The notes under the pieces are model-generated. The model made no database searches, was not told the DNA's origin, and worked only from the letters and a program-made list of their open reading frames with translations. Positions 5,596 to 42,815 of a stretch of DNA of 45,061 nt are shown here, piece by piece. The number at the start of each line of letters is the position of its first letter. Position 1 is the first letter of the stretch. The DNA lies in the IMG/VR virus record IMGVR_UViG_3300011116_001097, positions 1-45,061 of that record; one strand, written 5' to 3'. The stretch is from a virus. The position numbers and the translations under genes were made by a program.

Positions 5596-6312
5596 ATGGC
5601 CAATACACCAAATCAAATAAAGACAATTGGTGCAACCAAGATAAACTATGCAAAGAACACAATTTCTTCGCATGATTCTTATATGTGCGCCAATGCTTTG
5701 ATAACAAGGGGTGTAACAAGTGCACCTGAGACTCTGAACGATTGTTTTGAAAGATTTCCGAATGTAGCACTAATAGCATCTAATCTTGGTGTATCTTCCA
5801 CTATGTGGGCAGGTCCAGGAAGCCCTCCACCAGAAGGTAGTGTTCCTACTATTTTTGATCCATTGCTTGGAATTACATCTGAAGAATGCGAAAAAGTTAA
5901 AAATGTTTTGGGCGAATCGTGGTTAGGGTGTCTTTGGGGTTCTCCTATGGCTCCATTTAGTTGTACTTGCCCAGACGTTGGTCAAAATTATGTAAATTAC
6001 TTAAAATTGAGATTAAGTGATGCTACGTTCTGGTATACACCAATAGATGCTCCCGTCATGAGAAATCAATTTGCGGAGTTAATAAATCATGGTGAAAAAA
6101 TTTCAATTGATATTGCTGGAGATTTTAGAATAAAACCGGGAAATGTGGTTGAACTCAAAGTGGACAACATGGCAGCATATTCAAATACAATACCAGTATC
6201 AATTCTTTCTAAGAAATATTATGTTCTTTCGGTAAAACATACCATATCAAATTCCGGTGTACATGAGACAAAATTAGTTCTTTCGGATATCAGGGCAAAT
6301 GAAGTTTCATAA
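5596..6312 (+). CDS. Baseplate hub-domain protein
   Basis: A 238-aa protein whose ATG lies one base after the previous stop, so the two are surely co-translated. The C-terminal half (residues about 150-238) has IAGDFRIKPGNVVELKVDN and KYYVLSVKHTISNSGVHE followed by TKLVLSDIR, the beta-barrel close of gpD/gp27-type hub proteins ('x-P-G-x-x-V-x-L', then 'Y-x-V-x-x-V-x-H'). Six Cys residues occur in the first two thirds, two of them in FSCTCPD. It could be the C-terminal half of a hub that is one protein in other phages, or a separate hub-plug protein. The gp25 late promoter box follows at 6320. Confidence 0.4.
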   Translation: MANTPNQIKTIGATKINYAKNTISSHDSYMCANALITRGVTSAPETLNDCFERFPNVALIASNLGVSSTMWAGPGSPPPEGSVPTIFDPLLGITSEECEKVKNVLGESWLGCLWGSPMAPFSCTCPDVGQNYVNYLKLRLSDATFWYTPIDAPVMRNQFAELINHGEKISIDIAGDFRIKPGNVVELKVDNMAAYSNTIPVSILSKKYYVLSVKHTISNSGVHETKLVLSDIRANEVS

Positions 6313-8852: not shown

Positions 8853-9683
8853 ATGCAACCTACCACTAAGCAGCAATTTATAGACTATTGCTTCCGATCT
8901 TTGGGTGCCCCGGTAATTCAAATTAATATTGATACCGAGCAGGCCGAAGATAGACTAAATGAAGCACTTGAATACATGTACGAAAGACACTTTGATTTTA
9001 ATCAAAGAGCCTGGTATTTGTATCCAGTAACTCAACAAGATTTATCTAATAGATATTTTGACACTTCTACTTTTGGAAATGCCGTAGGTGCACAAGATCG
9101 CTATGACGAATCAACCGGGATTACAGGTGCGTGGCCAAATGCATCTGACATTCGTACAATAACAAAGGTATACAGACCATCTGATATTTCTGGTGATTAT
9201 ATGTTTGACCTCAGATATCAGCTTACTCTGTTTGATTTCTTTGGCTTGTATTTTAACCAAGGTGGTCTTAACACTGGTCCTATGGCATCCTACATGGAAT
9301 CCATGAGTTATCTAAAGTTAGTAAATGATGTTTTCAATTATCCTTGCTCATTTACATTCTCAAGAACAACACAACGACTGTTTCTTGAATTAGAAAACCA
9401 GAAACTCAATGCTGGACACTATCTTTTAGTTGAAGCCTATGTTCAAATTGATCCCAATCAATATTCCAGAGTGTGGAATGATCGTATCTTCAAAAAGTAT
9501 TATACGGCACTTTTGAAGAAACAATGGGCACAGAATTTGATGAAATTTGCTGGCGTTCCACTTCCAGGTGGAGCACAATTGAATGCTGCTGCAATAATGG
9601 CTGATGCTGTGAATGAATTAAATCAAATAGAACAAAGTCTTGTCAAGACTCAGGAATTGCCACCGGATCCACTTATAGGATAA
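8853..9683 (+). CDS. 13: gp13-like neck protein
   Basis: A 276-aa protein (T4 gp13 is 309 aa). It starts with a helical FIDYCFRSLGAPVIQINIDT then EDRLNEALEYMYERHFDF, and its C-terminal part holds SRVWNDRIFKKYYTALLKKQ and FAGVPLPGGAQLN, both well kept among T4-like gp13 proteins. gp13 forms the ring under the portal that closes the filled head and docks the tail. In T4 it is followed by gp14, but here gene 15 follows directly. It has its own late box, with the start only five bases after it. Confidence 0.8.
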   Translation: MQPTTKQQFIDYCFRSLGAPVIQINIDTEQAEDRLNEALEYMYERHFDFNQRAWYLYPVTQQDLSNRYFDTSTFGNAVGAQDRYDESTGITGAWPNASDIRTITKVYRPSDISGDYMFDLRYQLTLFDFFGLYFNQGGLNTGPMASYMESMSYLKLVNDVFNYPCSFTFSRTTQRLFLELENQKLNAGHYLLVEAYVQIDPNQYSRVWNDRIFKKYYTALLKKQWAQNLMKFAGVPLPGGAQLNAAAIMADAVNELNQIEQSLVKTQELPPDPLIG

Positions 9684-30166: not shown

Positions 30167-31330
30167 ATGGAACAGATTAAACTAGTAAAAGATACGATCA
30201 CACATTCTGAAATAGACAGTCTTTGTGATTGGTTGAAAACATATCCACAACTAACTAAGGGAAAATTAACAGAACAATTTGAACAAGAGTGGTCAAAGTG
30301 GTTGGGTGTAAAATATTCGGTATTTGTAAATTCTGGATCATCGGCAAATCTTGCAATGCTTTATGCATTGAAGGTTGGAAAAAAACTTAAAAACAATAAA
30401 GTCATTGTTCCTTGTGTTTCGTGGGTTACGACTGTAAGTCCGGTAATACAATTCGGTATGGACCCAATTCTCTGTGATACAGACAAGGAAACTCTTGGAT
30501 TGGATATTGAATACTTTGAACAGTTGTGCAAGGAACACAATCCAGCGTGTGTCATAATTGTTCACGTTCTTGGATTTCCAAATAAAATGAAGGAAATTCA
30601 AGATATTTGCAACAAATACGATGTAATACTACTTGAAGATTCATGTGAAAGTGTTGGCTCAGAATATTCTAGCAAACAGACTGGAACATTTGGCTTGATG
30701 TCTTCTTTTTCAACATATTTTGGTCATCATTTTTCCACTATTGAGGGTGGATTTGTATGTACCGATGATTTTGAACTATATGAAATACTGAAATCAATCA
30801 GATCACATGGTTGGAGCAGAGATCTTTCTGATGAAACAAAGCAAAAATTACAGAAAGAAAATAATATAGATGATTTTAAAAACTTCTATACTTTTTATTA
30901 TCCAGGATTCAATCTAAGAGCTACCGATGTTCAGGCTTTTTTGGGATTGAATCAATTGAAAACTTTGAAAGATAAAAATAATAGAAGATACACAAATTTA
31001 AAGTTGTATGACAGTTTAATAAAAAACGATTATTGGAAAATACAATTTAGTGAATTTACTAGCAACTTTGCTTATCCAATAATTCATCCCAACAAAAGTA
31101 TTATAGCTCAAAATTTGAAAAAAGGAAACGTGGAATGTCGTCCACTGATTTGTGGAAGCATGTCACGACAGCCATTCTTTTATAAACGGTATGGATTTAA
31201 GGAATATGCTTTCTCTGATATTATTCATGACAATGGTCTGTATCTACCAAACAACCCAGACATGTCAGATGATGAAATAAAATATATATCAGAAATTGTT
31301 AACAAATCAATTAACGAGGTGATGTCTTGA
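30167..31330 (+). CDS. ColD-like PLP-dependent 3-dehydratase (DegT family, His in place of Lys)
   Basis: A 387-aa member of the DegT/DnrJ/EryC1/StrS family. NSGSSANLAMLYAL (55-68) is the phosphate-binding block and LLEDSCESVGS with Asp158 holds the PLP ring nitrogen. Where aminotransferases have the Schiff-base lysine, this protein has H187-H188 (FSTYFGHHFSTIEGGF). That is the mark of ColD, GDP-4-keto-6-deoxymannose 3-dehydratase (388 aa, catalytic His numbered 188). It would remove the 3-hydroxyl to give a 4-keto-3,6-dideoxy sugar. Its TGA overlaps the TTG start of the Fcl-like gene, so the two enzymes are coupled, as expected for ColD and ColC. Confidence 0.72.
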   Translation: MEQIKLVKDTITHSEIDSLCDWLKTYPQLTKGKLTEQFEQEWSKWLGVKYSVFVNSGSSANLAMLYALKVGKKLKNNKVIVPCVSWVTTVSPVIQFGMDPILCDTDKETLGLDIEYFEQLCKEHNPACVIIVHVLGFPNKMKEIQDICNKYDVILLEDSCESVGSEYSSKQTGTFGLMSSFSTYFGHHFSTIEGGFVCTDDFELYEILKSIRSHGWSRDLSDETKQKLQKENNIDDFKNFYTFYYPGFNLRATDVQAFLGLNQLKTLKDKNNRRYTNLKLYDSLIKNDYWKIQFSEFTSNFAYPIIHPNKSIIAQNLKKGNVECRPLICGSMSRQPFFYKRYGFKEYAFSDIIHDNGLYLPNNPDMSDDEIKYISEIVNKSINEVMS

Positions 31331-32271
31331 ATAAAAATTCAAAAATATTTGTTGCAGGACACAACGGTCTTGTAGGCTCTGCAATTGTAAGAGAGCTAAA
31401 CAATCGTGGCTATAAAAACATTGTTACCAGATCAAGGTTGGAGTTGGACCTAAGAGATCAATTGGGAGTTTTGCATTTTTTTAATCACGAAAAACCAGAA
31501 TATGTATTTCTATGTGCTGCAAAAGTTGGTGGTATAGGTTGGAACAAAGAATGTCCAGCAGAATTTACATATGACAATCTTCAAATTCAAAATAATGTGA
31601 TTCACAGCGCCTACATAAACGAAACAAAAAAATTATTGTTTTTGGGGTCTGCTTGCATATATCCAAAGATAACACCACAACCAATAAAAGAATCTTATTT
31701 GATGACAGGTGAATTAGAATCAACAAATGCTGGTTATGCTTTGGCAAAAATTGCAGGATTAAAACTATGTCAATATTACAAGCAACAATATGGATTTAAT
31801 TGTATTTCGCTAATGCCAGCAAATGCATATGGTATCAATGATAATTTTAATGTTGAAAAATGCCATGTAATTCCAGCATTGATAAAAAAGTTTCTTGATG
31901 CAAAAGAAAAAAATGAAAAAGAAGTTGTTTGTTTTGGTGATGGAACGCCAACAAGAGAGTTTATCTGTTCAGATGATATGGCTGATGCTTGTCTTTTTTT
32001 GATGGACAATTACGATTCGTCTGATATAATCAATGTGGGTACTGGGATTGATGTAACGATAAAAGAGTTGGCAGAGACAATCAAAGAAAAAATTGGATAT
32101 AAAGGCAAAATAATTTGGGACACAACAAAACCAAATGGAACACCTTTAAGAAAACTATGTAATGAAAAACTAAATTCATTGGGTTGGAAACCAAAAATTT
32201 CTTTGGAACATGGAATAGAAAAAACAATTGAATGGTATTTGAAAAATAGAAACAATTATTGCAGAAACTAA
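31327..32271 (+). CDS. fcl: GDP-L-fucose synthase (Fcl/WcaG) or GDP-colitose synthase (ColC)
   Basis: A 314-aa SDR. The start is TTG at 31327 (TTGA overlap with the previous stop, GAGGTGATG before it); no in-frame ATG gives the full nucleotide-binding fold. GHNGLVG at 11-17 binds NADP; GSACIYP has Ser108 and Cys110; Y137-A-L-A-K141 is the SDR pair; His180 in KCHVIP completes the Cys/His pair that epimerises C3/C5. This is the Fcl set (S107, C109, Y136, K140, H179 in E. coli). With Gmd (38466) it would make GDP-L-fucose. ColC, the last enzyme of colitose synthesis, is a close relative, and the coupling to the ColD-like gene makes that role equally plausible. Confidence 0.85.
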   Translation: MNKNSKIFVAGHNGLVGSAIVRELNNRGYKNIVTRSRLELDLRDQLGVLHFFNHEKPEYVFLCAAKVGGIGWNKECPAEFTYDNLQIQNNVIHSAYINETKKLLFLGSACIYPKITPQPIKESYLMTGELESTNAGYALAKIAGLKLCQYYKQQYGFNCISLMPANAYGINDNFNVEKCHVIPALIKKFLDAKEKNEKEVVCFGDGTPTREFICSDDMADACLFLMDNYDSSDIINVGTGIDVTIKELAETIKEKIGYKGKIIWDTTKPNGTPLRKLCNEKLNSLGWKPKISLEHGIEKTIEWYLKNRNNYCRN

Positions 32272-33573
32272 ATGGAACAGATTTTAAATTCAATAAAAGA
32301 TTTTGTAAATAATAAACCAAAAAAAACCTGGATTCCAGGTCACGATACCGTTCAATATGCTGGCCCCTACTTTGATGCAGAAGAATATGTTGCTGCTGTA
32401 GAATCATTGATGGGTGGATGGTTAGTTCTCGGTCAGGCTGGAATAAAGTTTGAAAATACTTTTCCTAAGTTGTTTGACAAAAATTTTGGTATTTTAACAA
32501 ACAGTGGTAGCAGTTCAAATTTAATAATGATGTCTGCATTGACATCAAAAAGAATGTATAATTTTCCAAAAGGAACAAAAGTTATCACACCGATTGCTGG
32601 ATTTCCTACCACAATAAATCCAATTTTTCAAGTTGGTTTTGAACCAGCTTTTGTTGATATTGATCTTGACACACTGAATCTAAATCTAGATCAAGTTGAA
32701 GACAGAGCAAAAAAAGGTTGCAAAATAATAACTTTTGCACATGTCTTGGGAAATCCCCCAAACATGGATAGATTGATGGATATAGTAAAGAAGTATGATT
32801 TGTTGTTGCTGGAGGATTGCTGTGATGCTCTTGGTTCATATTACAAAGACAAACCTCTTGGTTCTTTTGGGGAATTTACTAGTTGCTCTTTTTATCCAGC
32901 GCATCACATGACCATGGGTGAAGGTGGATTCATTGCATGCAATACATATGATCAAGAAATAGTCATAAGAAGTTTTAGAGAATGGGGACGAGGATGTTTT
33001 TGTGTTGGACAAAAGGCAAATCTTCTAAAAGACGGGTGCTGTGGAAAGCGTTTTTCTAACTGGCTTCCATCGTTGCCTGATGAAGTATTCGATCACAAAT
33101 ATGTGTATGATGAGATTGGATACAACCTCAAGCCTATAGAACTACAAGCCGCAATTGGTCTTGCGCAAATGAAGAAGCTACCAGCGATTCACCAGAAGAG
33201 AAAAGAAAACCACAAAAGGTTGTATGACATTTTTAAAAATTATGAAGATTCATTTGTGTTGCCAGTTGCAACTCAGCACTCGGATCCAAGTTGGTTTGCT
33301 TTTGCCTTGACTATTAAGGATTCTGCTAAGTTCAAGAGAAAAGACATAGTAAATTTTCTTGAAGATCATAAAATACAAACTAGACCATATTTTGCAGGAA
33401 GTTTAATGTTGCAACCAGCGTATAGCGGACTGATGAATCAAGATGAGGTCATAAACAATTACCCAAATGCTAGAAAGGTAACTACAGACACTTTCTTCCT
33501 TGGTACGAGTCCGGTAATCACGTCCGAACAGTTGGATTATATAGAAAAAGTTATTAATAAATTTTTTGCCTAA
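32272..33573 (+). CDS. rfbH: RfbH-like [2Fe-2S]/PMP 3-dehydrase (CDP-4-keto-6-deoxyglucose type)
   Basis: A 433-aa protein, the size of RfbH/AscC (about 437 aa). It has TNSGSSSNLIMMSAL, LLEDCCDALGSYY, and the E1 motif SCSFYPAHHMTMGEGGF with H211-H212 in place of the aminotransferase lysine. Cys242, Cys244 and the pair Cys256-Cys257 (WGRGCFCVG, then DGCCGKRF) match the iron-sulfur cysteine cluster of E1. DHKYVYDEIGYNLKP is a further RfbH block. E1 makes 4-keto-3,6-dideoxyglucose for abequose, tyvelose and ascarylose. No E3 reductase (RfbI) and no RfbF/RfbG pair is seen here, so partner enzymes must come from the host or lie outside the window. Starts directly after the Fcl stop. Confidence 0.85.
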   Translation: MEQILNSIKDFVNNKPKKTWIPGHDTVQYAGPYFDAEEYVAAVESLMGGWLVLGQAGIKFENTFPKLFDKNFGILTNSGSSSNLIMMSALTSKRMYNFPKGTKVITPIAGFPTTINPIFQVGFEPAFVDIDLDTLNLNLDQVEDRAKKGCKIITFAHVLGNPPNMDRLMDIVKKYDLLLLEDCCDALGSYYKDKPLGSFGEFTSCSFYPAHHMTMGEGGFIACNTYDQEIVIRSFREWGRGCFCVGQKANLLKDGCCGKRFSNWLPSLPDEVFDHKYVYDEIGYNLKPIELQAAIGLAQMKKLPAIHQKRKENHKRLYDIFKNYEDSFVLPVATQHSDPSWFAFALTIKDSAKFKRKDIVNFLEDHKIQTRPYFAGSLMLQPAYSGLMNQDEVINNYPNARKVTTDTFFLGTSPVITSEQLDYIEKVINKFFA

Positions 33574-35051: not shown

Positions 35052-36005
35052 ATGAAAATAGTTTATGTTACAGGTTGTTTAGGGTTCATTGGTTCGTATG
35101 TAACAATGTCGTGCCTAGACAAAGGTTGGTTTGTCAAAGGGATTGATTCTTGCACATATGCTGCCAACAAAGAGATGTTGGGAGTATTTGCACAGTACAA
35201 TAATTTTTCATTTGTAAAATGCGACATAAATGATTTAAAGTTTTTGTATGATTGTGATTATATCATCAACACTGCAGCAGAAACCCACGTCGGGAACTCA
35301 ATCGCAAAAAGTGATGAGTTTGTAAAATCAAATGTAAATGGAGTTCATAATTTACTAGAATTAGTAAAAAATTATCGGCAGGAACACACCAAAATACCGA
35401 CGCTTCTCCATTTTAGCACCGATGAAGTTTATGGAGATATTGTTGGTGGAACACACACAGAAACAGACTTGCTGAAACCATCCAACCCATATTCTGCAAC
35501 AAAGGCCGCAGCAGACATGTTGATCATGGCCTGGGCTCGTACTTATAACGTGCCATACATCATCGTAAGACCAACCAACAACTATGGAATAGGACAATAC
35601 GTTGAAAAACTTATTCCAAAGGCATGTAAGTATCTACATCTTGGCCGCAAAATACCTTTGCACAACAATGGAACTCCTATTCGAACTTGGCTCCACGCAG
35701 CAGACACAGCATCTGCTGTGGTTAAAATAATTGAGTCTGGTGTACGAAATGAGATATACAACATCTCTGGTGGATTTGAGCAATCTAATATGGAGACAGT
35801 TATAAAAATATTAGATGTTATTTTTGGAAAAAATAACTATGATTTGAATCAATATCTCGACTTGTCCTATTCTAGGGTTGGTCAAGATGTTAGATATTCT
35901 TTGGATGATACAAAATTAAAATCGCTTGGGTGGAAACCAAAAATGTCATTTGATGAAGAACTTTCAAAAATTGTTTCATATTACAAAAACAAATTTATAT
36001 GGTGA
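35052..36005 (+). CDS. RmlB-like nucleotide-sugar 4,6-dehydratase
   Basis: A 317-aa extended SDR. G8-C-L-G11-F-I-G14 binds NAD; FSTDEVYGD gives Thr123-Asp124-Glu125, the catalytic triad partner of 4,6-dehydratases; PSNPYSATKAAADMLI has Y147 and K151; RPTNNYGIGQYVEKLIPKAC is the RmlB substrate block. The likely reaction is conversion of dTDP-glucose (or another NDP-glucose) to the 4-keto-6-deoxy sugar, which could feed the RfbH-like enzyme. It is slightly shorter than typical RmlB (about 350 aa) and CDP-glucose dehydratases. The central part (35480-35760) is richer in G+C than its neighbours. Confidence 0.8.
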   Translation: MKIVYVTGCLGFIGSYVTMSCLDKGWFVKGIDSCTYAANKEMLGVFAQYNNFSFVKCDINDLKFLYDCDYIINTAAETHVGNSIAKSDEFVKSNVNGVHNLLELVKNYRQEHTKIPTLLHFSTDEVYGDIVGGTHTETDLLKPSNPYSATKAAADMLIMAWARTYNVPYIIVRPTNNYGIGQYVEKLIPKACKYLHLGRKIPLHNNGTPIRTWLHAADTASAVVKIIESGVRNEIYNISGGFEQSNMETVIKILDVIFGKNNYDLNQYLDLSYSRVGQDVRYSLDDTKLKSLGWKPKMSFDEELSKIVSYYKNKFIW

Positions 36006-36009
36006 AATT

Positions 36010-36567
36010 ATGAATAAAGGAATAACACTAGTACCACAATCTCTTTGCGATTTAATAGTAAATCATTTAACTAATGAAAATGGAAATTACCTTGAAATAG
36101 GTTCATACTATGGAAAATTTATTTCTGAAATTGCTGCTAAATTTTCCAACAATCAATTTAATAGTATAGATCCCTTCATTGCTGATGGATGGACTGGTGA
36201 GACTGAAGGAACAGTGTTGGAATCTGTAGAATCAGTTTTTATAGAAAATACACAACAATATACAAATATAAAACACTTTAAAAAAAGAAGTTGTGAATTT
36301 GTAAACAATCCGGATCTAATAAAACAATTTAAAGATATAAGTTGTGTTTTGATTGATGGATCGCACCATAAAAAAGATATTTTATGTGATATCGAGTTGG
36401 CAACAAGTATAATTACAAATAAAAAATTGTTAATTATCTTTGATGACCTACACATAAAAGATGTTAATGATTGTGTTGAATTGTTTAAAAATCAATTTAA
36501 AGAACGAATTTTTGATGATAAAAATTTTAATAGTTTCGCTAGTTTTACATTATATCCAAATCAATGA
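36010..36567 (+). CDS. SAM-dependent methyltransferase-like protein (second copy)
   Basis: A 185-aa protein if it starts at ATG 36010, four bases after the RmlB stop; an upstream in-frame ATG at 35926 would overlap that gene by 80 bases and is unlikely. NYLEIGSYYGKFISEIAAKF is motif I (E-I-G-x-x-x-G) and CVLIDGSHHKKDILCDIE is the D-G-x-H block of the methyltransferase_24 type, as in the gene at 28293. LIIFDDLHIKDVNDC follows. Two such enzymes suggest more than one methylation or related step. Coupled to the thiamine enzyme after it by ATGA. Confidence 0.6.
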   Translation: MNKGITLVPQSLCDLIVNHLTNENGNYLEIGSYYGKFISEIAAKFSNNQFNSIDPFIADGWTGETEGTVLESVESVFIENTQQYTNIKHFKKRSCEFVNNPDLIKQFKDISCVLIDGSHHKKDILCDIELATSIITNKKLLIIFDDLHIKDVNDCVELFKNQFKERIFDDKNFNSFASFTLYPNQ

Positions 36568-37205
36568 ATACCAAAGAAAGAATACTAGGCATAGCATATA
36601 AAAATAAATTGTCACATCTTGGCAGTTATTTTTCAAGTTTGGACGTAATAGATAATATTTACAAAAACAAAAACAAAGATGATATCTTTATTTTGTCTTC
36701 AGGGCATGCTGCATTAGCTCTATATGTTTGCATTGAAAAGTACGAAGGAAAAAATGCTGAAGAACTTTTTAAAAAGTACGGTGGACATCCACATCTCAGC
36801 GAAACAGACGGTATATATTGCTCGACTGGGAGTCTTGGTTTGGGCATCACAGTTGCTCTCGGTAGAGCTATTGGAAACAAGAACAGAAAAGTCCACGTTC
36901 TAATAAGTGATGGGGAATGTGCTGAAGGCAGCGTATGGGAAGCTTTAAAAACAATACACGAACAAAAAATAGAAAATATTGAAGTTCATGTAAATATAAA
37001 CGGTTATGCCGCATACATGGAAGTTGACAAAAATTATCTTGTAAACCGTTTAAACAGTTTTTTGCCAAACATTAGATTGTGGTTTACCAGAGTCGATCAT
37101 TTTCCATTCCTTAAGGGTTTGAATGCACACTACCATGTTATGAGTGAATCTGACTATCTTTCTGCATTAGAATTGATTGGAGATAAAGATGCGTCGTCAA
37201 TTTGA
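36564..37205 (+). CDS. Transketolase-like N-terminal (ThDP-binding) subunit
   Basis: A 213-aa protein covering only the pyrophosphate domain of transketolase. LSHLGSYFSSLDVIDNIY, then DDIFILSSGHAALALYV, STGSLGLGITVALGRAIG and LISDGECAEGSVWEALKT match split transketolase alpha subunits; D116-G117-E118 with Asn143/145 forms the 'G-D-G...N' metal and diphosphate site (Ser for the first Gly). Usual alpha subunits are about 270-285 aa. It overlaps the next gene by 17 bases, so the two form one enzyme. In a sugar island it may transfer a two-carbon unit to a keto sugar rather than serve the pentose pathway. Confidence 0.75.
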   Translation: MNTKERILGIAYKNKLSHLGSYFSSLDVIDNIYKNKNKDDIFILSSGHAALALYVCIEKYEGKNAEELFKKYGGHPHLSETDGIYCSTGSLGLGITVALGRAIGNKNRKVHVLISDGECAEGSVWEALKTIHEQKIENIEVHVNINGYAAYMEVDKNYLVNRLNSFLPNIRLWFTRVDHFPFLKGLNAHYHVMSESDYLSALELIGDKDASSI

Positions 37206-37665
37206 ATCATTGTTGTTTGAGGCGATGAAAACAAACCAAGATATTTTCTTGATAACAGGTGATCTCGGATATGGGTTGTGGGACAGAATAAGAGATTCAT
37301 ATCCAGATAGATTTATGAATGTTGGGTCTTCCGAAATGACAATGATGGGAATTGGGGTTGGGCTTGCACTTGAAAACAAAATACCATTTGTGTATTCTAT
37401 CACCCCATTTGCAATATATCGACCATTTGAAATGATACGAAACTATTTGAGTCATGAAAGAATAGCTGTAAATATTGTTGGTGGGGGAAGAGACAGAGAC
37501 TATGGATATCTTGGATTTTCTCACTGGGCTGAAGAAGACAAGCAGATAATTGGTTCGTTGAAAAACATAAGAATGTGTCATCCGGATAATGAAGAACAAC
37601 TTAATTCGGATTTCTTGTCGATTATGGAAATACCAAAGCCAACTTACATCAATCTGAGAAAATAA
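37189..37665 (+). CDS. Transketolase-like pyrimidine-domain subunit
   Basis: A 158-aa protein if started at ATG 37189; a TTG at 37177 is possible. LITGDLGYGLWDRIRDSYPD, then NVGSSEMTMMGIGVGLALEN with Glu49 (the residue that activates thiamine diphosphate; compare 'G-I-A-E-Q-x-M-x-G') and PFVYSITPFAIYRPFEMIRN identify the Pyr domain. It stops there: the usual transketolase C-terminal domain of about 120 residues is absent. With the partner subunit the enzyme totals about 370 aa, far below the 600 aa of usual split transketolases. It follows the partner with a 17-base overlap. Confidence 0.75.
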   Translation: MRRQFESLLFEAMKTNQDIFLITGDLGYGLWDRIRDSYPDRFMNVGSSEMTMMGIGVGLALENKIPFVYSITPFAIYRPFEMIRNYLSHERIAVNIVGGGRDRDYGYLGFSHWAEEDKQIIGSLKNIRMCHPDNEEQLNSDFLSIMEIPKPTYINLRK

Positions 37666-37668
37666 TAT

Positions 37669-38436
37669 ATGAAAATCTTGCTTACTGGTGCTGAAGGCTA
37701 TATAGGAAAACATGTATACAAATCATTTTCTTCAAAACATGAAATAACAGCAATTGGAAGAAAAGATTTGGATCTTTCAGATTCATCCCAGGTTGATTCA
37801 TGGTTTTCTGGAAAGTCATTTGACGTTGTGATTCACTCTGCTGCAATTGGTGGAAGCAGACTTGTTCCGGATACTTCTTTTGTAACAAGTCAAAATCTCA
37901 ACATGTATTTCAATCTACTGTCACATAAAAATAAGTTTGAAAGATGTATTACATTCGGCTCCGGTGCAGAAATTTTTATGCCAGAATCATTTTATGGGTT
38001 AAGCAAAAGAGCAATAGCACAGTCAATCAACAATACGAATAATTTTTTCAATCTCAGAATATTTGCCGTGTTCAATGAAAGTGAATTGAATACAAGATTC
38101 ATAAAATCAAATATAATGAGGTATAAGAGAAAAGAACCGATGGAAATAGATTGCAATAAAGTGATGGATTTTTTTCATATGGAAGATCTTATGACCCTTG
38201 TTGATTATTATCTAAAAGAACCAAATCCTCCGAAGGAAATAAATTGCAACTATGAAACAAAATATACATTAAAAGACATTGCAAATATCATCAACAAAAG
38301 TGAAAAACACAAAGTTAAGATCAACATCAAAAATGAAGTTGAATTGCAATTTTATTGTAGTTCCCACACAAAACTTCCATTAAAATATTTGGGTCTTGAA
38401 AAGGGTGTAGAAAAAACTTTTAAATTGTTGCAATAG
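37669..38436 (+). CDS. NAD-dependent epimerase/dehydratase (SDR), sugar reductase-like
   Basis: A 255-aa SDR. MKILLTGAEGYIGKHVYKSF with G7-A-E-G10-Y-I-G13 is the nucleotide-binding turn; IHSAAIGGSRLVPDTS resembles Fcl; Ser98 in FGSGAE and Y109-G-L-S-K113 form the catalytic set. It is shorter than Fcl or RmlB and has no clear Cys/His epimerase pair, so a simple 4-keto reductase (abequose or colitose type, like RfbJ) is a reasonable idea. It follows the thiamine enzyme by three bases and may reduce its product. Confidence 0.6.
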   Translation: MKILLTGAEGYIGKHVYKSFSSKHEITAIGRKDLDLSDSSQVDSWFSGKSFDVVIHSAAIGGSRLVPDTSFVTSQNLNMYFNLLSHKNKFERCITFGSGAEIFMPESFYGLSKRAIAQSINNTNNFFNLRIFAVFNESELNTRFIKSNIMRYKRKEPMEIDCNKVMDFFHMEDLMTLVDYYLKEPNPPKEINCNYETKYTLKDIANIINKSEKHKVKINIKNEVELQFYCSSHTKLPLKYLGLEKGVEKTFKLLQ

Positions 38437-38465: not shown

Positions 38466-39470
38466 ATGAACAAAACAGCATTAATAATCGGAGCTAATGG
38501 CCAAGATGCATCATATCTTGCAGAATTTCTTCTCGATAAAAACTATAATGTGCACGGAACAATCAGAAGAAACTCGGTTCCGGAATCACAGACTACAAGA
38601 ATTCAGCATTTACATGACAAAAATCAAATAACACTGCATTATGCGGATTTAACGGATGCTCTTAGCATTGAAAGTGTTATTCAAAGATTGCAACCAGATG
38701 AAATTTATCATCTCGCAGCACAATCACACGTTCAAATTTCATTTGATCTACCACAATATACTCTGGATGTAAATGGTGGTGGGACTCTTGCCGTTCTTGA
38801 GGCAGTTAGGCGATTTTCACCACATTCAAAAGTATATCATGCTGCAACATCCGAAATGTTTGGAAATTCAAAGGATGTGGATGGATATCAGCGTGAAACA
38901 ACTCCCATGATTCCAGTCAGTCCATATGGTTGTGCAAAACTATATGCACACACACTTTGCAGAAATTATTCACAGGCATATGGAATTTTTGCATGTTCTG
39001 GAATTCTTTTTAATCATGAATCTCCAAGACGTGGAATTAACTTTGTCACAAACAAGGTTGCTCTCCAAGCAGCAAAGATCAAATTGGGATATGCAGATAA
39101 ACTGGTTTTGGGAAACCTAGACTCATATAGAGACTGGGGACATGCAAAGGATTATGTTGAAGGAATGTGGTTGATGGTCCAGCAGGAAACTCCACAGAGT
39201 TATGTTATTGCCACCGGAGAAACACGTTCAGTTCGTGAGATGGTAAACTATGTATTTGACTACGCTGGTCTTGACGTAGCAAAGTATGTATTCACGGATG
39301 AGAAGTATTGCAGACCGGAAGAATTGCATTATCTTCGTGGCGATTCATCAAAGGCTCAAAATGAGCTAAATTGGAAGCCAAAGATCTCGTTCATGGAAAT
39401 GATGGAAGAGATGGTTAACTATTGGAGTCACAGATTGACTAACAAAAAGGTTGATTTTGCAGAAGTATAA
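38466..39470 (+). CDS. gmd: GDP-mannose 4,6-dehydratase
   Basis: A 334-aa enzyme, the usual Gmd length. G9-A-N-G12-Q-D-A binds NADP (usually G-x-T-G-Q-D-G); RRNSVPESQTTRIQHL is the Gmd Arg/Thr loop; HLAAQSHVQISFD, ATSEMFG with Thr128-Ser129-Glu130, and Y154-G-C-A-K158 complete the active site; FNHESPRRGINFVTNKV and LGNLDSYRDWGHAKDYVEGM are unmistakable Gmd blocks. It makes GDP-4-keto-6-deoxymannose, the branch point to GDP-fucose (Fcl), GDP-colitose (ColD, ColC) or GDP-perosamine. A 29-base gap separates it from the previous gene. Confidence 0.95.
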   Translation: MNKTALIIGANGQDASYLAEFLLDKNYNVHGTIRRNSVPESQTTRIQHLHDKNQITLHYADLTDALSIESVIQRLQPDEIYHLAAQSHVQISFDLPQYTLDVNGGGTLAVLEAVRRFSPHSKVYHAATSEMFGNSKDVDGYQRETTPMIPVSPYGCAKLYAHTLCRNYSQAYGIFACSGILFNHESPRRGINFVTNKVALQAAKIKLGYADKLVLGNLDSYRDWGHAKDYVEGMWLMVQQETPQSYVIATGETRSVREMVNYVFDYAGLDVAKYVFTDEKYCRPEELHYLRGDSSKAQNELNWKPKISFMEMMEEMVNYWSHRLTNKKVDFAEV

Positions 39471-39484
39471 GGTAGAATAAATTC

Positions 39485-40051
39485 GTGAAAAAGCCAAAGA
39501 AGAAAAAATCAAAGGCATCCGATGCCGATTATGTGGACAATCAGATGCTATATGATGCTTTGGTTGAATATAGAAAAAAGTGCCGTGAAGCAGAAAACAG
39601 TGGAAGAAAAAAACCAAAGGTAACAGAATACCTAGGTGAATGCATACTTAAAATAGCAACAAGATTATCTTATAGACCAAACTTTGCCAACTACCCATAC
39701 AGGGAAGAAATGGTATCAGATGCAGTCTTAAATTGCATAACCTACATTGACAATTTTGATCCAAAAAAATCAACTAGCCCGTTTGGTTACCTAACCCAGA
39801 TATGCTGGTTTTCTTTCGTCCGGATAATAAACAAGGAAAAGAAAGAAAAGTATATTCAATACAAGTTTGCGGAACAGCAGAATGACAAAGACTTTCACAA
39901 CTGGTTCAACGAAACGTATGCTGGAGTTGATATTGGCAGACGAGATTTCTTTGGGTTGACGGATTTGGACATGGAGCGCTTTGATGAAATGTGCTCACCA
40001 AAGAAGAAGAAAAGAAAAAAGCGCAAAGTCAAATCACCATTCGAAGAATGA
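39485..40051 (+). CDS. 55: gp55 late-transcription sigma factor
   Basis: A 188-aa protein (T4 gp55 is 185 aa), started at GTG 39485. EEMVSDAVLNCITYIDNFDP followed by KKSTSPFGYLTQICWFSFV and RIINKEKKEKY is the sigma region 2-like core of gp55, which recognises the late box TATAAATA. The ends are unusual: MKKPKKKKSK at the start and KKKKRKKRKVKSPFEE at the finish. T4 gp55 ends in a hydrophobic sliding-clamp binding motif (S-L-D-F-L-Y-E), and no equally clear motif is seen, although S-P-F-E-E could be a remnant. It overlaps gene 47 by four bases. Confidence 0.88.
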   Translation: MKKPKKKKSKASDADYVDNQMLYDALVEYRKKCREAENSGRKKPKVTEYLGECILKIATRLSYRPNFANYPYREEMVSDAVLNCITYIDNFDPKKSTSPFGYLTQICWFSFVRIINKEKKEKYIQYKFAEQQNDKDFHNWFNETYAGVDIGRRDFFGLTDLDMERFDEMCSPKKKKRKKRKVKSPFEE

Positions 40052-41094
40052 AAGCAGTAATTTTAAACGATACCCATTTTGGTTACAAAAATGATTCCAG
40101 CATCGTGCTGGATTACTTCTTGGATTTTTTTACAGATGAGTTGTTTCCATATATAAAGAAACACGACATCAAGACAATATTTCATTTAGGCGATCTTTTT
40201 GACAGGAGAAAATATGTTAATTTTAAGACGCTTCATAGAGTCAATGAAGAGTTTTTTAAGCCTCTTCAGGCAAACCAAATCAAAGTCCATGCCATTTGTG
40301 GAAATCACGATACCTACTACAGAAACACAAATAGCGTCAACTCTTTACGAGAATTGGTTGAGCATTATCCAAACTGGTCAGTCTACTCCGAACCTACAGA
40401 GGTACATCTTTCCATGGGATGTGTGGCACTCGTACCGTGGATCAATCCGGAAAACGAAGACCTGACTGCCAAGTTTCTTTCTGAGACTTCTTGTTCCGTA
40501 TTGTTCGGGCATCTGGAACTTGCTGGTTTTCAAATTCTTCCAGCAACATTTATAGAACATGGTTATGATCCAAAACATTTCAACAAATTTGAGTATGTTC
40601 TTAGTGGGCATTATCATATTAAGTCTTCCCGTGATAACATACATTATCTCGGAACGCAATATCAGATGGGCTTCTCGGATGTTTGGGAGAAAAAGGGATT
40701 TCACGTGTTCGACTTTAAGGAACGCACTCTTGAGTTTGTCGAGAATCCAAAAAAACTTTTCTATACGTTTGACTACAACGAAGACGAACCAAAAAAGATA
40801 GACTATGAATCGTTGAAGAATTGTTATGTCAAGGTATTCATAAAGAAAAAAACAAAGCAACCTTTGTTTGAAAAATATCTTGACAAATTTTATGATGCTG
40901 GGGTGGCGGAATTGGCTATTGCAGAGCAAGACATTGCAAACCCAGAACTTGTAAGTGTTGACATTCACAAGGATACTCTGCAACTTCTGCATGAGGAAAT
41001 TGACACCATCACCGAACAGTCAATCGACAAGAAACAACTTGCAGACATCATAAACACAGCATATAATTCTGCATTGTCTAAGGATGAAGAATGA
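40048..41094 (+). CDS. 47: gp47 recombination endonuclease, Mre11/SbcD-like subunit
   Basis: A 348-aa protein (T4 gp47 is 339 aa) if started at ATG 40048, which overlaps the gp55 stop (ATGA); the frame is open further upstream but that would lie within gp55. Metallophosphatase motifs are in order: D8-T9-H10 in VILNDTHFG, G48-D49 in HLGDLFDRR, G85-N-H-D88 in ICGNHDTYY, then LFGHLELAG and LSGHYHIKS. With gp46 it resects DNA ends and degrades host DNA, giving the 3' ends used by UvsX/UvsY. It ends ATGA into gene 46. Confidence 0.92.
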   Translation: MKAVILNDTHFGYKNDSSIVLDYFLDFFTDELFPYIKKHDIKTIFHLGDLFDRRKYVNFKTLHRVNEEFFKPLQANQIKVHAICGNHDTYYRNTNSVNSLRELVEHYPNWSVYSEPTEVHLSMGCVALVPWINPENEDLTAKFLSETSCSVLFGHLELAGFQILPATFIEHGYDPKHFNKFEYVLSGHYHIKSSRDNIHYLGTQYQMGFSDVWEKKGFHVFDFKERTLEFVENPKKLFYTFDYNEDEPKKIDYESLKNCYVKVFIKKKTKQPLFEKYLDKFYDAGVAELAIAEQDIANPELVSVDIHKDTLQLLHEEIDTITEQSIDKKQLADIINTAYNSALSKDEE

Positions 41095-42815
41095 TTGAAT
41101 TTGAATGTGTTCGATTCAAGAACTTTGGTTCTTTTGGTGGGAACTTTTCTGAAATAAAACTAAACAGCAACAAGACCACTCTTGTAACCGGCACGAATGG
41201 TCACGGAAAGTCTTTTGCTCTTCTGGACTCACTTTGCTTTGGTTTGTTCGGAAAGCCATTTAGACCAATCAATATTCCTCAGTTGGTCAATACGGTCAAC
41301 GGAAAAAACTGTGTTGTTGAGATCGAATTCACACGGTCAAACTCCAAGTATCTGGTTCGTCGTGGCTTGAGTCCCAAGATCTTTGAGATTCACAAAGACG
41401 GTGAGATGGTAGATCAGCATGCCAAGAGCAAGGATTACCAAGATTATTTTGAAGAACAGATATTGGGGTTCAACTATGCTGCCTTCAAGCAAGTGGTGAT
41501 TCTTGGAAAGTCCAACTTTGTTCCTTTCATGCAGTTGACTCCAGCAGATCGCAGAAAGATTATCGAAGGACTTTTGGATCTAGACATTTTGGCTGACATG
41601 AATACACATGTTCGCAGCCAACTCGTAAAATTGAAATCTGATATTTCTGAAAACGAAAGTTTTTTGAAGATTGCAAACGAGAAGATTCGATCACTCACAG
41701 AACTCAAGGAACAGATCGATAGCAACAAAAACATTGAACTTAAGGAAAAAGAGAAGGAACTTGAGGAACTAGAAAAACTTCATGAACTTCAAACTTCCAG
41801 CCTCAATAAAATCACTGAAAAATTTCATGAATTGCAGAACACAGACAAAAAAGCCATAACGTCTAGAATGGTTCCCCTGAACGGGGTTCCGGTCATGCAC
41901 TCCAAGGCATTGGAGATGGAGAAGGGGCTTATAGAGCAAATACAGGCCCTAGAAAACGATCCTAAATGCACTTGCTGCGGCCAGGTTCTACCAGAAGAGG
42001 CCAGACAGGAACATTTGAAGGAAAAGCGTGAAAAATTGTTTGCCTGTAGAAAATCTTTGACTGTTGCCAACAAAAAATTGAAAGAATTGGAAGTTTGCAA
42101 GGTTGATCTTGAAGAAGTAGAAAAACAAATTTTAGAAGCCCAAATTCAGCAGGCTCAAGCAGTCACGGCCAAAAATTCCACCAACAGAGAGATAATTGCC
42201 CTTAAGCAAAAAATTGAAAAGATTCGATCATCTCCAAGTGAATCCGGAGTGGATGGCAAGATCGAAGAGGCAATTAAGCAGAAAGACTCACATGCCAAGA
42301 ACCTTCAAAAAGCCATCAATGATCAAATTCACTACGATGTTGTCTACGATATGCTCAAGGATGGCGGACTCAAGAGCCGTATTATCAAACATTATGTTCC
42401 CATCATCAATGGACTCGTCAACAAGTACCTCGGAAAACTTAATCTCTTCGTTGACTTCACCATCGATGAAGAGTTCAAGGAAACAATCAAGTCACGATAC
42501 CGGGATGCATTCTCATATTCCTCTTTCTCTGAGGGAGAGAAACAGCGTATCGATCTGGCCATTCTCCTGACTTGGAGAGAGATTGCCAAGATGAAGAATA
42601 GTCTCAATTGCAATCTTCTCATCTTTGACGAGATTCTAGATTCATCCTTGGACTCTGCTGGAACTGAGGCTTTCCTGAAATTGCTCAACAAGATGAAGAG
42701 CAAATGTTCAATATATATCATCAGCCACAAAGCTGACTCTTTGACTGATAAATTCGATCAGCAACTGCAATTTGAGAAGAAAAACAACTTTTCTAGGATC
42801 AAGTCACAAGTCTAA
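41091..42815 (+). CDS. 46: gp46 recombination endonuclease, Rad50/SbcC-like ATPase subunit
   Basis: A 574-aa protein (T4 gp46 is 560 aa). Walker A G34-T-N-G-H-G-K40-S41; a Q-loop region at about 140-150; long coiled-coil arms (about 185-255 and 300-400) with a zinc hook C293-T-C-C296; ABC signature F479-S-E-G-E-K-Q485; Walker B LLIFDE at 509-514 with D-loop S-S-L-D-S-A-G, and a switch His in IISHKADS. The subunit powers and clamps the gp47 nuclease on DNA ends. The order 55-47-46 is that of T4. It is followed by a late box and fibre genes. Confidence 0.94.
   Translation: MIEFECVRFKNFGSFGGNFSEIKLNSNKTTLVTGTNGHGKSFALLDSLCFGLFGKPFRPINIPQLVNTVNGKNCVVEIEFTRSNSKYLVRRGLSPKIFEIHKDGEMVDQHAKSKDYQDYFEEQILGFNYAAFKQVVILGKSNFVPFMQLTPADRRKIIEGLLDLDILADMNTHVRSQLVKLKSDISENESFLKIANEKIRSLTELKEQIDSNKNIELKEKEKELEELEKLHELQTSSLNKITEKFHELQNTDKKAITSRMVPLNGVPVMHSKALEMEKGLIEQIQALENDPKCTCCGQVLPEEARQEHLKEKREKLFACRKSLTVANKKLKELEVCKVDLEEVEKQILEAQIQQAQAVTAKNSTNREIIALKQKIEKIRSSPSESGVDGKIEEAIKQKDSHAKNLQKAINDQIHYDVVYDMLKDGGLKSRIIKHYVPIINGLVNKYLGKLNLFVDFTIDEEFKETIKSRYRDAFSYSSFSEGEKQRIDLAILLTWREIAKMKNSLNCNLLIFDEILDSSLDSAGTEAFLKLLNKMKSKCSIYIISHKADSLTDKFDQQLQFEKKNNFSRIKSQV

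Follow-up and report, generated by a model that had tools for sequence, protein, structure and literature searches.

A minimal split transketolase in a T4-like phage shares one gene slot with two other kinds of thiamine-dependent carboligase

What does a phage do with a transketolase (TK) reduced to two small proteins and placed within a sugar gene cluster? The question is raised by IMG/VR virus record IMGVR_UViG_3300011116_001097 (the whole 45 kb record, 45,061 nucleotides (nt), is referred to here as the window), in which two overlapping genes, here called TKN and TKPYR, lie just upstream of a short-chain dehydrogenase/reductase (SDR) gene. We report that they encode the halves of a split TK and that the slot they occupy can be filled, in aquatic phages, by at least three interchangeable carboligase cassettes, of which this pair is one. 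From its sequence and genomic context, we consider it about 70% likely that the pair is a ketolase that would take a hydroxyacetyl group from a common ketol and add it to a nucleoside diphosphate (NDP)-4-keto-3,6-dideoxyhexose at C-4, the product then being reduced by the SDR. The two genes are as follows.

36564..37205, + strand: TKN, the diphosphate (PP) half of the minimal split transketolase, 213 amino acids (aa); PF00456, 6yak
37189..37665, + strand: TKPYR, the pyrimidine (Pyr) half, 158 aa counted from the ATG; PF02779, 6yaj

The two open reading frames have 17 nt in common, and 3 nt separate the TKPYR stop from the start of the SDR gene. TKN matched the Transketolase_N family (PF00456) at 34 bits (cut-off 22), and TKPYR matched Transket_pyr (PF02779) at 50 bits (cut-off 27). 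By sequence, the top relatives in the PDB were chains of the split TK of Carboxydothermus, 6yak for TKN (E 6.5e-15) and 6yaj for TKPYR (E 9e-17), and the same two structures again ranked first when AlphaFold2 single-chain models (mean pLDDT 92.5 for TKN and 88.9 for TKPYR) were searched with Foldseek. The TK C-terminal domain (Transketolase_C, PF02780) was absent across the whole record, in a search that was positive for 14/14 control genomes, and the TKPYR-type genes of 62 relatives end after the Pyr domain, at a length of 156–187 aa. The diphosphate motif of TKN reads SDGE..EG...NG, not GDG, and its PP domain is about 30 residues shorter than in bacterial relatives according to the alignment. 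These results confirm that positions 36564–37205 and 37189–37665 encode the halves of a split TK without the TK C-terminal domain, as the initial annotation had recognised from the diphosphate and pyrimidine domains of the two proteins. Membership in two other groups of thiamine diphosphate (ThDP) enzymes was rejected: the pair belongs to PF00456 and PF02779 and not to the single-chain TPP_enzyme_N/M/C architecture, so that it is at most YerE-like in action, and it has neither a PF00676 match nor PF02780, which excludes it from the pyruvate dehydrogenase (PDH)-E1-type alphaKADH2 group.

Both subunits were present in 112/112 viral loci retrieved by pattern scans for relatives of either subunit, so their pairing is not due to chance. 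A search of PHROGs gave no family for either of them, and a phage-database search with the pair gave no close match among named phages, its matches (24–34% identity) being mostly unannotated fecal records and short bacterial-looking records. The phage-database search with the neighbouring 4,6-dehydratase gave no match at 1e-60.

A census of distinct sequences identified the residues that the family retains. In TKN, H18, H48, H75, D116, E118, E121, N146 and H189 are invariant (61 distinct sequences); in TKPYR, R78, R84, R101, Y105, H112 and the predicted catalytic Glu, E49, are invariant (62 distinct sequences, with E49 present in 62/62, as anticipated). In an alignment with full-length TK, the histidines of the pair coincide with the five active-site histidines of TK, which we take to be H30, H69, H103, H263 and H481 of the yeast enzyme; H75 of TKN, located in a GHP motif, presumably corresponds to yeast H103, a contact to the C1 hydroxyl of the donor. 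The positions aligned with the sugar-phosphate or acceptor contacts H469, D477 and R528 of TK are replaced in the pair, and the region of R359 is highly divergent (yeast numbering). Because the histidines and cofactor residues are invariant and H469, D477 and R528 are replaced, thiamine chemistry and recognition of the donor hydroxyl look retained and the acceptor pocket looks altered. The pair thus displays the PP and Pyr domains, the ThDP motif, the catalytic Glu and the histidines of a transketolase, and it lacks PF02780 and the H469/D477/R528 contacts.

The most decisive evidence comes from the genomic position of the pair. The usual gene order in relatives is dehydratase, TKN, TKPYR and SDR, often with RfbH nearby, and the 4,6-dehydratase gene adjoins the pair in most viral loci. 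In the window, the slot between dehydratase and SDR is delimited as follows.

35052..36005, + strand: RmlB-like NDP-glucose 4,6-dehydratase, 317 aa, left border of the slot; TIGR01181 295.6 bits (cut-off 365), CDP_4_6_dhtase 76.6 bits
36028..36567, + strand: Methyltransf_24 protein; PF13578 27.2 bits
37669..38436, + strand: SDR, 255 aa, RmlD/epimerase-like, conserved right border of the slot; PF01370 65.9 bits, motifs TGAEGYIG and YGLSK

The PF13578 and PF01370 matches bear out the earlier placement of the pair between a methyltransferase and an SDR; the Methyltransf_24 gene is an occasional passenger of the slot, since only a few of the other TK loci gave a BLAST match to it. The dehydratase shows the motifs STDEVYGD and YSATK (TDE and YxxxK). 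The SDR, the presumed ketone reductase of the sugar branch, carries TGxxGxxG and YxxxK motifs; a PDB sequence search with it gave no match, and its sequence diverges too far for relatives to be retrieved by pattern.

Further viral loci were retrieved by the dehydratase alone and, separately, by RfbH alone, and where the TK pair is missing, a different thiamine enzyme takes its position. For an unbiased census, slots were taken from the dehydratase-anchored scan, chosen without reference to the TK pair. Exactly one ThDP carboligase was found in 60/60 distinct complete slots: a YerE/JanthE-like enzyme in 40, the TK pair in 13 and a PDH-E1-type pair in 7. Slots free of a carboligase were those truncated by contig ends. 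ThDP genes numbered 60/189 inside the slots vs 2/746 outside (odds ratio 173; Fisher p 6e-43, which overstates independence because the 60 slots are distinct in sequence and not phylogenetically independent events), and equal-sized control slots upstream and downstream contained a ThDP gene in 0/57 and 0/37 cases. When all sets were pooled, a carboligase was present in 125/125 complete slots, three of which have two; since the pooled sets were partly selected by the carboligase itself, 60/60 is the unbiased figure. The YerE-like occupant is a single chain of 575–595 aa from the decarboxylase superfamily (TPP_enzyme_N/M/C), and in the one example checked, at locus L199, the best PDB match was JanthE (8rph, 400 bits), followed by acetolactate synthase (255 bits). 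The PDH-E1-type occupant is a pair of 208 and 178 aa with PF00676, a weak PF02779 match and no C-terminal domain. Such a minimal pair lies at 8876–10038 of L212, and about 40 distinct relatives of it were found.

The cassettes are exchanged with precision, the breakpoints being the dehydratase stop and the SDR start, with flanks that are 77–89% identical around cassettes that differ. L024 (TK) and L244 (PDH-type) have dehydratases that are 95% identical as protein and 89% as DNA, and their homology resumes at the SDR. DNA identity between L261 (PDH-type) and L273 (YerE-like) is 86% up to the end of the dehydratase and 77% from the SDR, and the flanks of L218 (TK) and L206 (YerE-like) are 83% and 81% identical. 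On a FastTree tree of the dehydratase (122 rows), at least 37 changes of cassette type were counted, against 49–62 after shuffling, and on that of the SDR 41, against a shuffled mean of 55, all tree counts being inflated by weakly supported branches. Neither tree closely follows the type of cassette, which is what one would expect of a dehydratase and an SDR that act for every product; since the SDR tree gave no sign of tracking cassette type, the SDR is not assigned to the product of any single cassette.

Two explanations that would deny the pair a role in sugar branching can be weighed here. An auxiliary pentose-phosphate transketolase driving host carbon flow in infection would account for the TK homology and would join other carbon-metabolism genes known in cyanophages (PMC3037559). 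We judge it very improbable for a pair that is located within a sugar-nucleotide cluster, lacks the TK C-terminal domain, has the canonical TK phosphate-contact positions replaced and is swapped with carboligases that are not transketolases. The results also bear on the open question of whether marine phages put their lipopolysaccharide (LPS)-type sugar clusters to use or carry them as "stuffer DNA" (PMC3037559), a question that lends some ground to regarding the pair as decayed genes or functionless packaging filler. That is hardly credible at all, however, when about 60 distinct sequences, some with as little as about 40% identity, show no variation at the tested catalytic and cofactor positions and the subunits are always paired; the precise exchange of cassettes, together with the conserved catalytic residues, speaks for function.

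As for the acceptor, the sugar gene cluster of the window (approximately 24.4–39.5 kb) contains a further dehydratase.

32272..33573, + strand: RfbH-type pyridoxal phosphate/[2Fe-2S] NDP-4-keto-6-deoxyglucose 3-dehydratase, 433 aa; NF011936 RfbH 457.7 bits (cut-off 423), PDB 3bcx E 1.5e-98

Aligned with 3bcx, this enzyme has a His in place of the catalytic Lys (FYPAHHMTMGEGG) and retains the Fe-S cysteines. RfbH was present in 17/29 long TK-bearing records and a 383 aa RfbH/ColD relative in 11 of the other 12, so that an RfbH-type 3-dehydratase or RfbH-like enzyme accompanies the pair in 28/29. One 383 aa RfbH/ColD-like dehydratase, at 5897–7048 of L031, shows the Lys-to-His change and is missing the Fe-S cysteines. 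The initial annotation had envisaged a TK-type enzyme adding a two-carbon branch to the 4-keto-3,6-dideoxy sugar made by the RfbH-type enzyme; the frequency of RfbH-type enzymes and the sharing of the slot with YerE/JanthE-like or PDH-type enzymes lend this proposal support. The cluster shows the 4,6-dehydratase and RfbH-type 3-dehydratase of a yersiniose-type pathway, as well as a ThDP carboligase beside an SDR, and the CDP-glucose start of that pathway (RfbF/RfbG) was not found. The dehydratase scored 296 bits on the dTDP-glucose model vs 77 on the CDP-glucose model, and no NTP-transferase (PF00483) was detected in the window; matches to this family occurred in only 5/30 records, always within proteins of about 640 aa, which suggests that the host probably supplies the NDP-glucose. 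Because of the better fit to the dTDP-glucose model and the lack of an NTP-transferase in the window, the nucleotide is more likely dTDP than the CDP or GDP first suggested. The most likely acceptor is dTDP-4-keto-3,6-dideoxyglucose, the nucleotide part of which we infer from these two observations. A start from CDP-glucose was set aside in view of the dTDP-type dehydratase and the lack of a nucleotidyltransferase in the window. A GDP-colitose acceptor was also set aside, since ColD, GDP-mannose 4,6-dehydratase (GMD) and fucose/colitose-synthase-like genes, unlike the dehydratase and the SDR, rarely occur with the pair elsewhere.

For the assembly, acceptor, donor, product and role of the SDR, we infer the following scheme. 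The two proteins would assemble as an α2β2 ThDP-dependent ketolase. Host NDP-glucose (probably dTDP-glucose) would be converted by the RmlB-like enzyme into NDP-4-keto-6-deoxyglucose and by the RfbH-type enzyme into NDP-4-keto-3,6-dideoxyglucose. From a ketol that is common in the cell, either a ketose phosphate or hydroxypyruvate, the TK pair would cleave off a two-carbon hydroxyacetyl unit and attach it to the ketone at C-4 of this sugar, yielding a tertiary alcohol; the SDR would then reduce the new side-chain ketone to give NDP-3,6-dideoxy-4-C-(1,2-dihydroxyethyl)hexose, to be used by the phage's own glycosyltransferases. A ketol donor would give a mass increase of +60 Da, and +62 Da after reduction, in place of the +44 or +42 Da originally expected, +44 Da being the value for a pyruvate donor.

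The genes accompanying the carboligases are informative about the donor. Accessory, keto-acid-forming enzymes were found in 42/52 YerE-like slots vs 0/42 TK and 0/28 PDH-type slots. These extras comprise ketopantoate hydroxymethyltransferase (PanB), acetaldehyde dehydrogenase with 4-hydroxy-2-oxovalerate aldolase, a NeuB-like synthase, an HpcH-like aldolase and a dehydroquinate (DHQ)-synthase-like protein; judging by family, most would form 2-oxo acids, which are what YerE-like enzymes take as donors. A preference for 4-hydroxy-2-oxo acids has been reported for ErwE (PMC12247030), which fits the aldolase-bearing YerE-like cassette. As no donor-making enzyme occurs in the TK and PDH cassettes, common metabolites are their likely donors, and the simplest reading is that the TK cassette would use common ketols and the PDH-type cassette pyruvate. 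Slots with a YerE-like enzyme and PanB (L199 2369–5091, L200, L231, L263 and L274) predict a branch with ketopantoate or a similar 2-oxo acid as its source, and those with acetaldehyde dehydrogenase and 4-hydroxy-2-oxovalerate aldolase (L248 8942–12551, L257, L264 and L214) predict a longer hydroxylated branch, by comparison with erwiniose-type sugars. At L204 4332–8498 and L233 8948–13455, the YerE-like enzyme stands beside a DHQ-synthase-like cyclase, a small SDR and an HpcH- or NeuB-like enzyme.

With the same acceptor and pathway, the pair could be a TK by descent only and use pyruvate or some other 2-oxo acid to add an acetyl branch, as in yersiniose (+44 Da). Pyruvate is a substrate of TK-like ThDP folds such as DXPS, DXPS structures rank high in the Foldseek search with TKPYR, and 2-oxo acids are the expected donors of the pair's swap partners, both YerE-like and PDH-type. 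We nevertheless consider this donor unlikely, given that the TK histidine constellation, including H75, is invariant in 61/61 sequences and that the pyruvate niche of the slot is already filled by a separate PDH-type pair.

Several observations weigh against a ketolase acting on a dideoxy keto sugar. The conserved histidines and the absent accessory genes are the whole basis for the ketol donor, and the invariant R101 might bind a phosphate, so that residues by themselves do not fix the type of acceptor. In some loci no SDR was recognised between the TK pair and the genes that follow, and in L193 the dehydratase is flanked by the pair on its opposite side. Furthermore, in deep-branching viral relatives (L050 7968–10970, L122, L123, L126 and L140) the pair lies beside pfkB kinase, nucleotidyltransferase and HAD phosphatase genes, in loci without dehydratases. 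This lineage implies that part of the TK-pair family may act on another substrate, and it is the main reason for caution about the family as a whole. Such neighbours would suit a pair whose product is a ketose, free or phosphorylated (for instance a tetrulose, heptulose or octulose), activated by a kinase and a nucleotidyltransferase, to which the dideoxy-sugar neighbourhood would be secondary; fused PDH-type E1 proteins beside kinase, heptose-type adenylyltransferase and epimerase genes in the cultured cyanophages P-TIM68 and S-SM2 point the same way. The kinase loci are, however, a minority, the window and most relatives having an RfbH-type enzyme, a dehydratase and an SDR with no adjoining kinase, and it would be left unexplained why YerE-like enzymes replace the pair in one slot; a ketose-making role is, in our opinion, quite improbable. 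The fused proteins (P-TIM68, L307 11049–14128, AVU42_gp190; S-SM2, L308 10971–15666, SSM2_198), annotated as "transketolase central region" and devoid of a C-terminal domain, resemble the pair as phage-borne ThDP carboligases of about 380–400 aa in sugar clusters, but are kin of the PDH-type cassette and have the neighbours just named. L113, L114, L115, L122, L123 and L126 are filed as Maricaulis, Thaumarchaeota, Planctomycetaceae and Euryarchaeota metagenome-assembled genomes (MAGs); because their gene order is that of the viral loci, they are probably viral contigs binned into MAGs.

Beyond the sister phages, Omnitrophota, Patescibacteria and Elusimicrobia genomes contain a cluster of SDR, methyltransferase, TKN, TKPYR and GT2 glycosyltransferase, also without the C-terminal domain. 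A more distant group of TK pairs (L135–L138) retains that domain; in L135, a bacterial contig, the pair lies near RfbH, CDP-glucose-dehydratase-like and nucleotidyltransferase-like genes.

Comparison with known systems places the predicted ketolase more precisely. The split TK of Carboxydothermus hydrogenoformans (6yak/6yaj) likewise has PP and Pyr domains on two chains, the cofactor motif, the catalytic Glu and the TK histidines, but it keeps the TK C-terminal domain (in a chain of 341 aa, against 158 aa for the phage Pyr chain), and the acceptor-contact positions of the phage pair differ. The YerE/ErwE/JanthE-like enzymes of yersiniose and erwiniose would share the same step, in which a 4-keto-3,6-dideoxy nucleotide sugar is the acceptor of a ThDP carboligation; both JanthE and YerE join keto acids to ketones, the ketone in the case of YerE being CDP-4-keto-3,6-dideoxyglucose (PMC12247030, PMC12188165). 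These are single chains of about 590 aa from the decarboxylase superfamily with 2-oxo acid donors, whereas the phage pair belongs to another ThDP superfamily. The alphaKADH2 pairs (AviB1/AviB2, Pau11/Pau12 and KbDH-alpha/beta) are two-subunit ThDP enzymes that form C2-branched sugars, but they are of the E1-type alpha/beta kind with pyruvate as donor, and the pair of the window is TK-type. The addition of a hydroxyacetyl branch to a keto sugar has already been proposed for the split TKs of miharamycin and amipurimycin, so that TK-type sugar branching is not being proposed here for the first time; these enzymes belong to Streptomycete antibiotic pathways, with no virus, LPS-type cluster or dideoxy sugar, and are uncharacterised in vitro, 13 further candidates all coming from Streptomycetes (PMC12247030). 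According to the same 2025 review, three ThDP superfamilies are known or proposed to use ketone acceptors, namely decarboxylases (YerE-like), alphaKADH2 and transketolases; for transketolases this is no more than a proposal, made for Streptomycete antibiotics and never shown in vitro, there is no structure of a ketone-accepting TK, and viruses are speculated upon with none cited (PMC12247030). All three kinds named there exchange in one phage slot. No report of branched sugars in phages was found in the literature, with subscription papers outside the scope of the search.

Taken together, the sequence data strongly suggest that these aquatic viruses build and diversify rare branched sugars. 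We lean towards a combinatorial diversification of nucleotide sugars, in which a constant chassis (4,6-dehydratase, 3-dehydratase and reductase) would be combined with an exchangeable ThDP cassette from three superfamilies, some with their own donor pathway (PanB, MhpE/MhpF, NeuB-like, HpcH-like or DHQ-synthase-like). The function of the cassette system would probably be to vary a surface sugar; a role in glycosylation of the virion or the host surface is our guess from the glycosyltransferase-like genes of the cluster. If such a system exists, it would produce undescribed branched sugars, modifying for instance the virion or host surface, and the TK pair would be the first viral transketolase to accept a ketone. 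Few ThDP enzymes add carbon chains to keto sugars, and the phage offers a minimal TK-type candidate, 371 aa in total, together with its presumed pathway. The single slot allows a comparison of three unrelated types of carboligase that probably share an acceptor, and from the donor-making genes beside them several new branched sugars are predicted.

The virus record is that of a T4-like phage, as indicated by head/capsid, portal, terminase, gp55, gp47 and gp46 genes. The remaining features are as follows.

39485..42815, + strand: phage genes gp55 (late sigma factor), gp47 and gp46
30167..32271, + strand: ColD-like dehydratase and GDP-fucose/colitose-synthase-like SDR, neighbours on a separate GDP-sugar route
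38466..39470, + strand: GMD-like gene of the same separate GDP-sugar route; TIGR01472 396.6 bits (cut-off 415)

As the gp55, gp47 and gp46 genes adjoin it, the sugar cluster lies inside the T4-like phage. The GMD-like, ColD-like and fucose/colitose-synthase-like genes form a second route in the window, which probably leads to a GDP-colitose- or fucose-type sugar.

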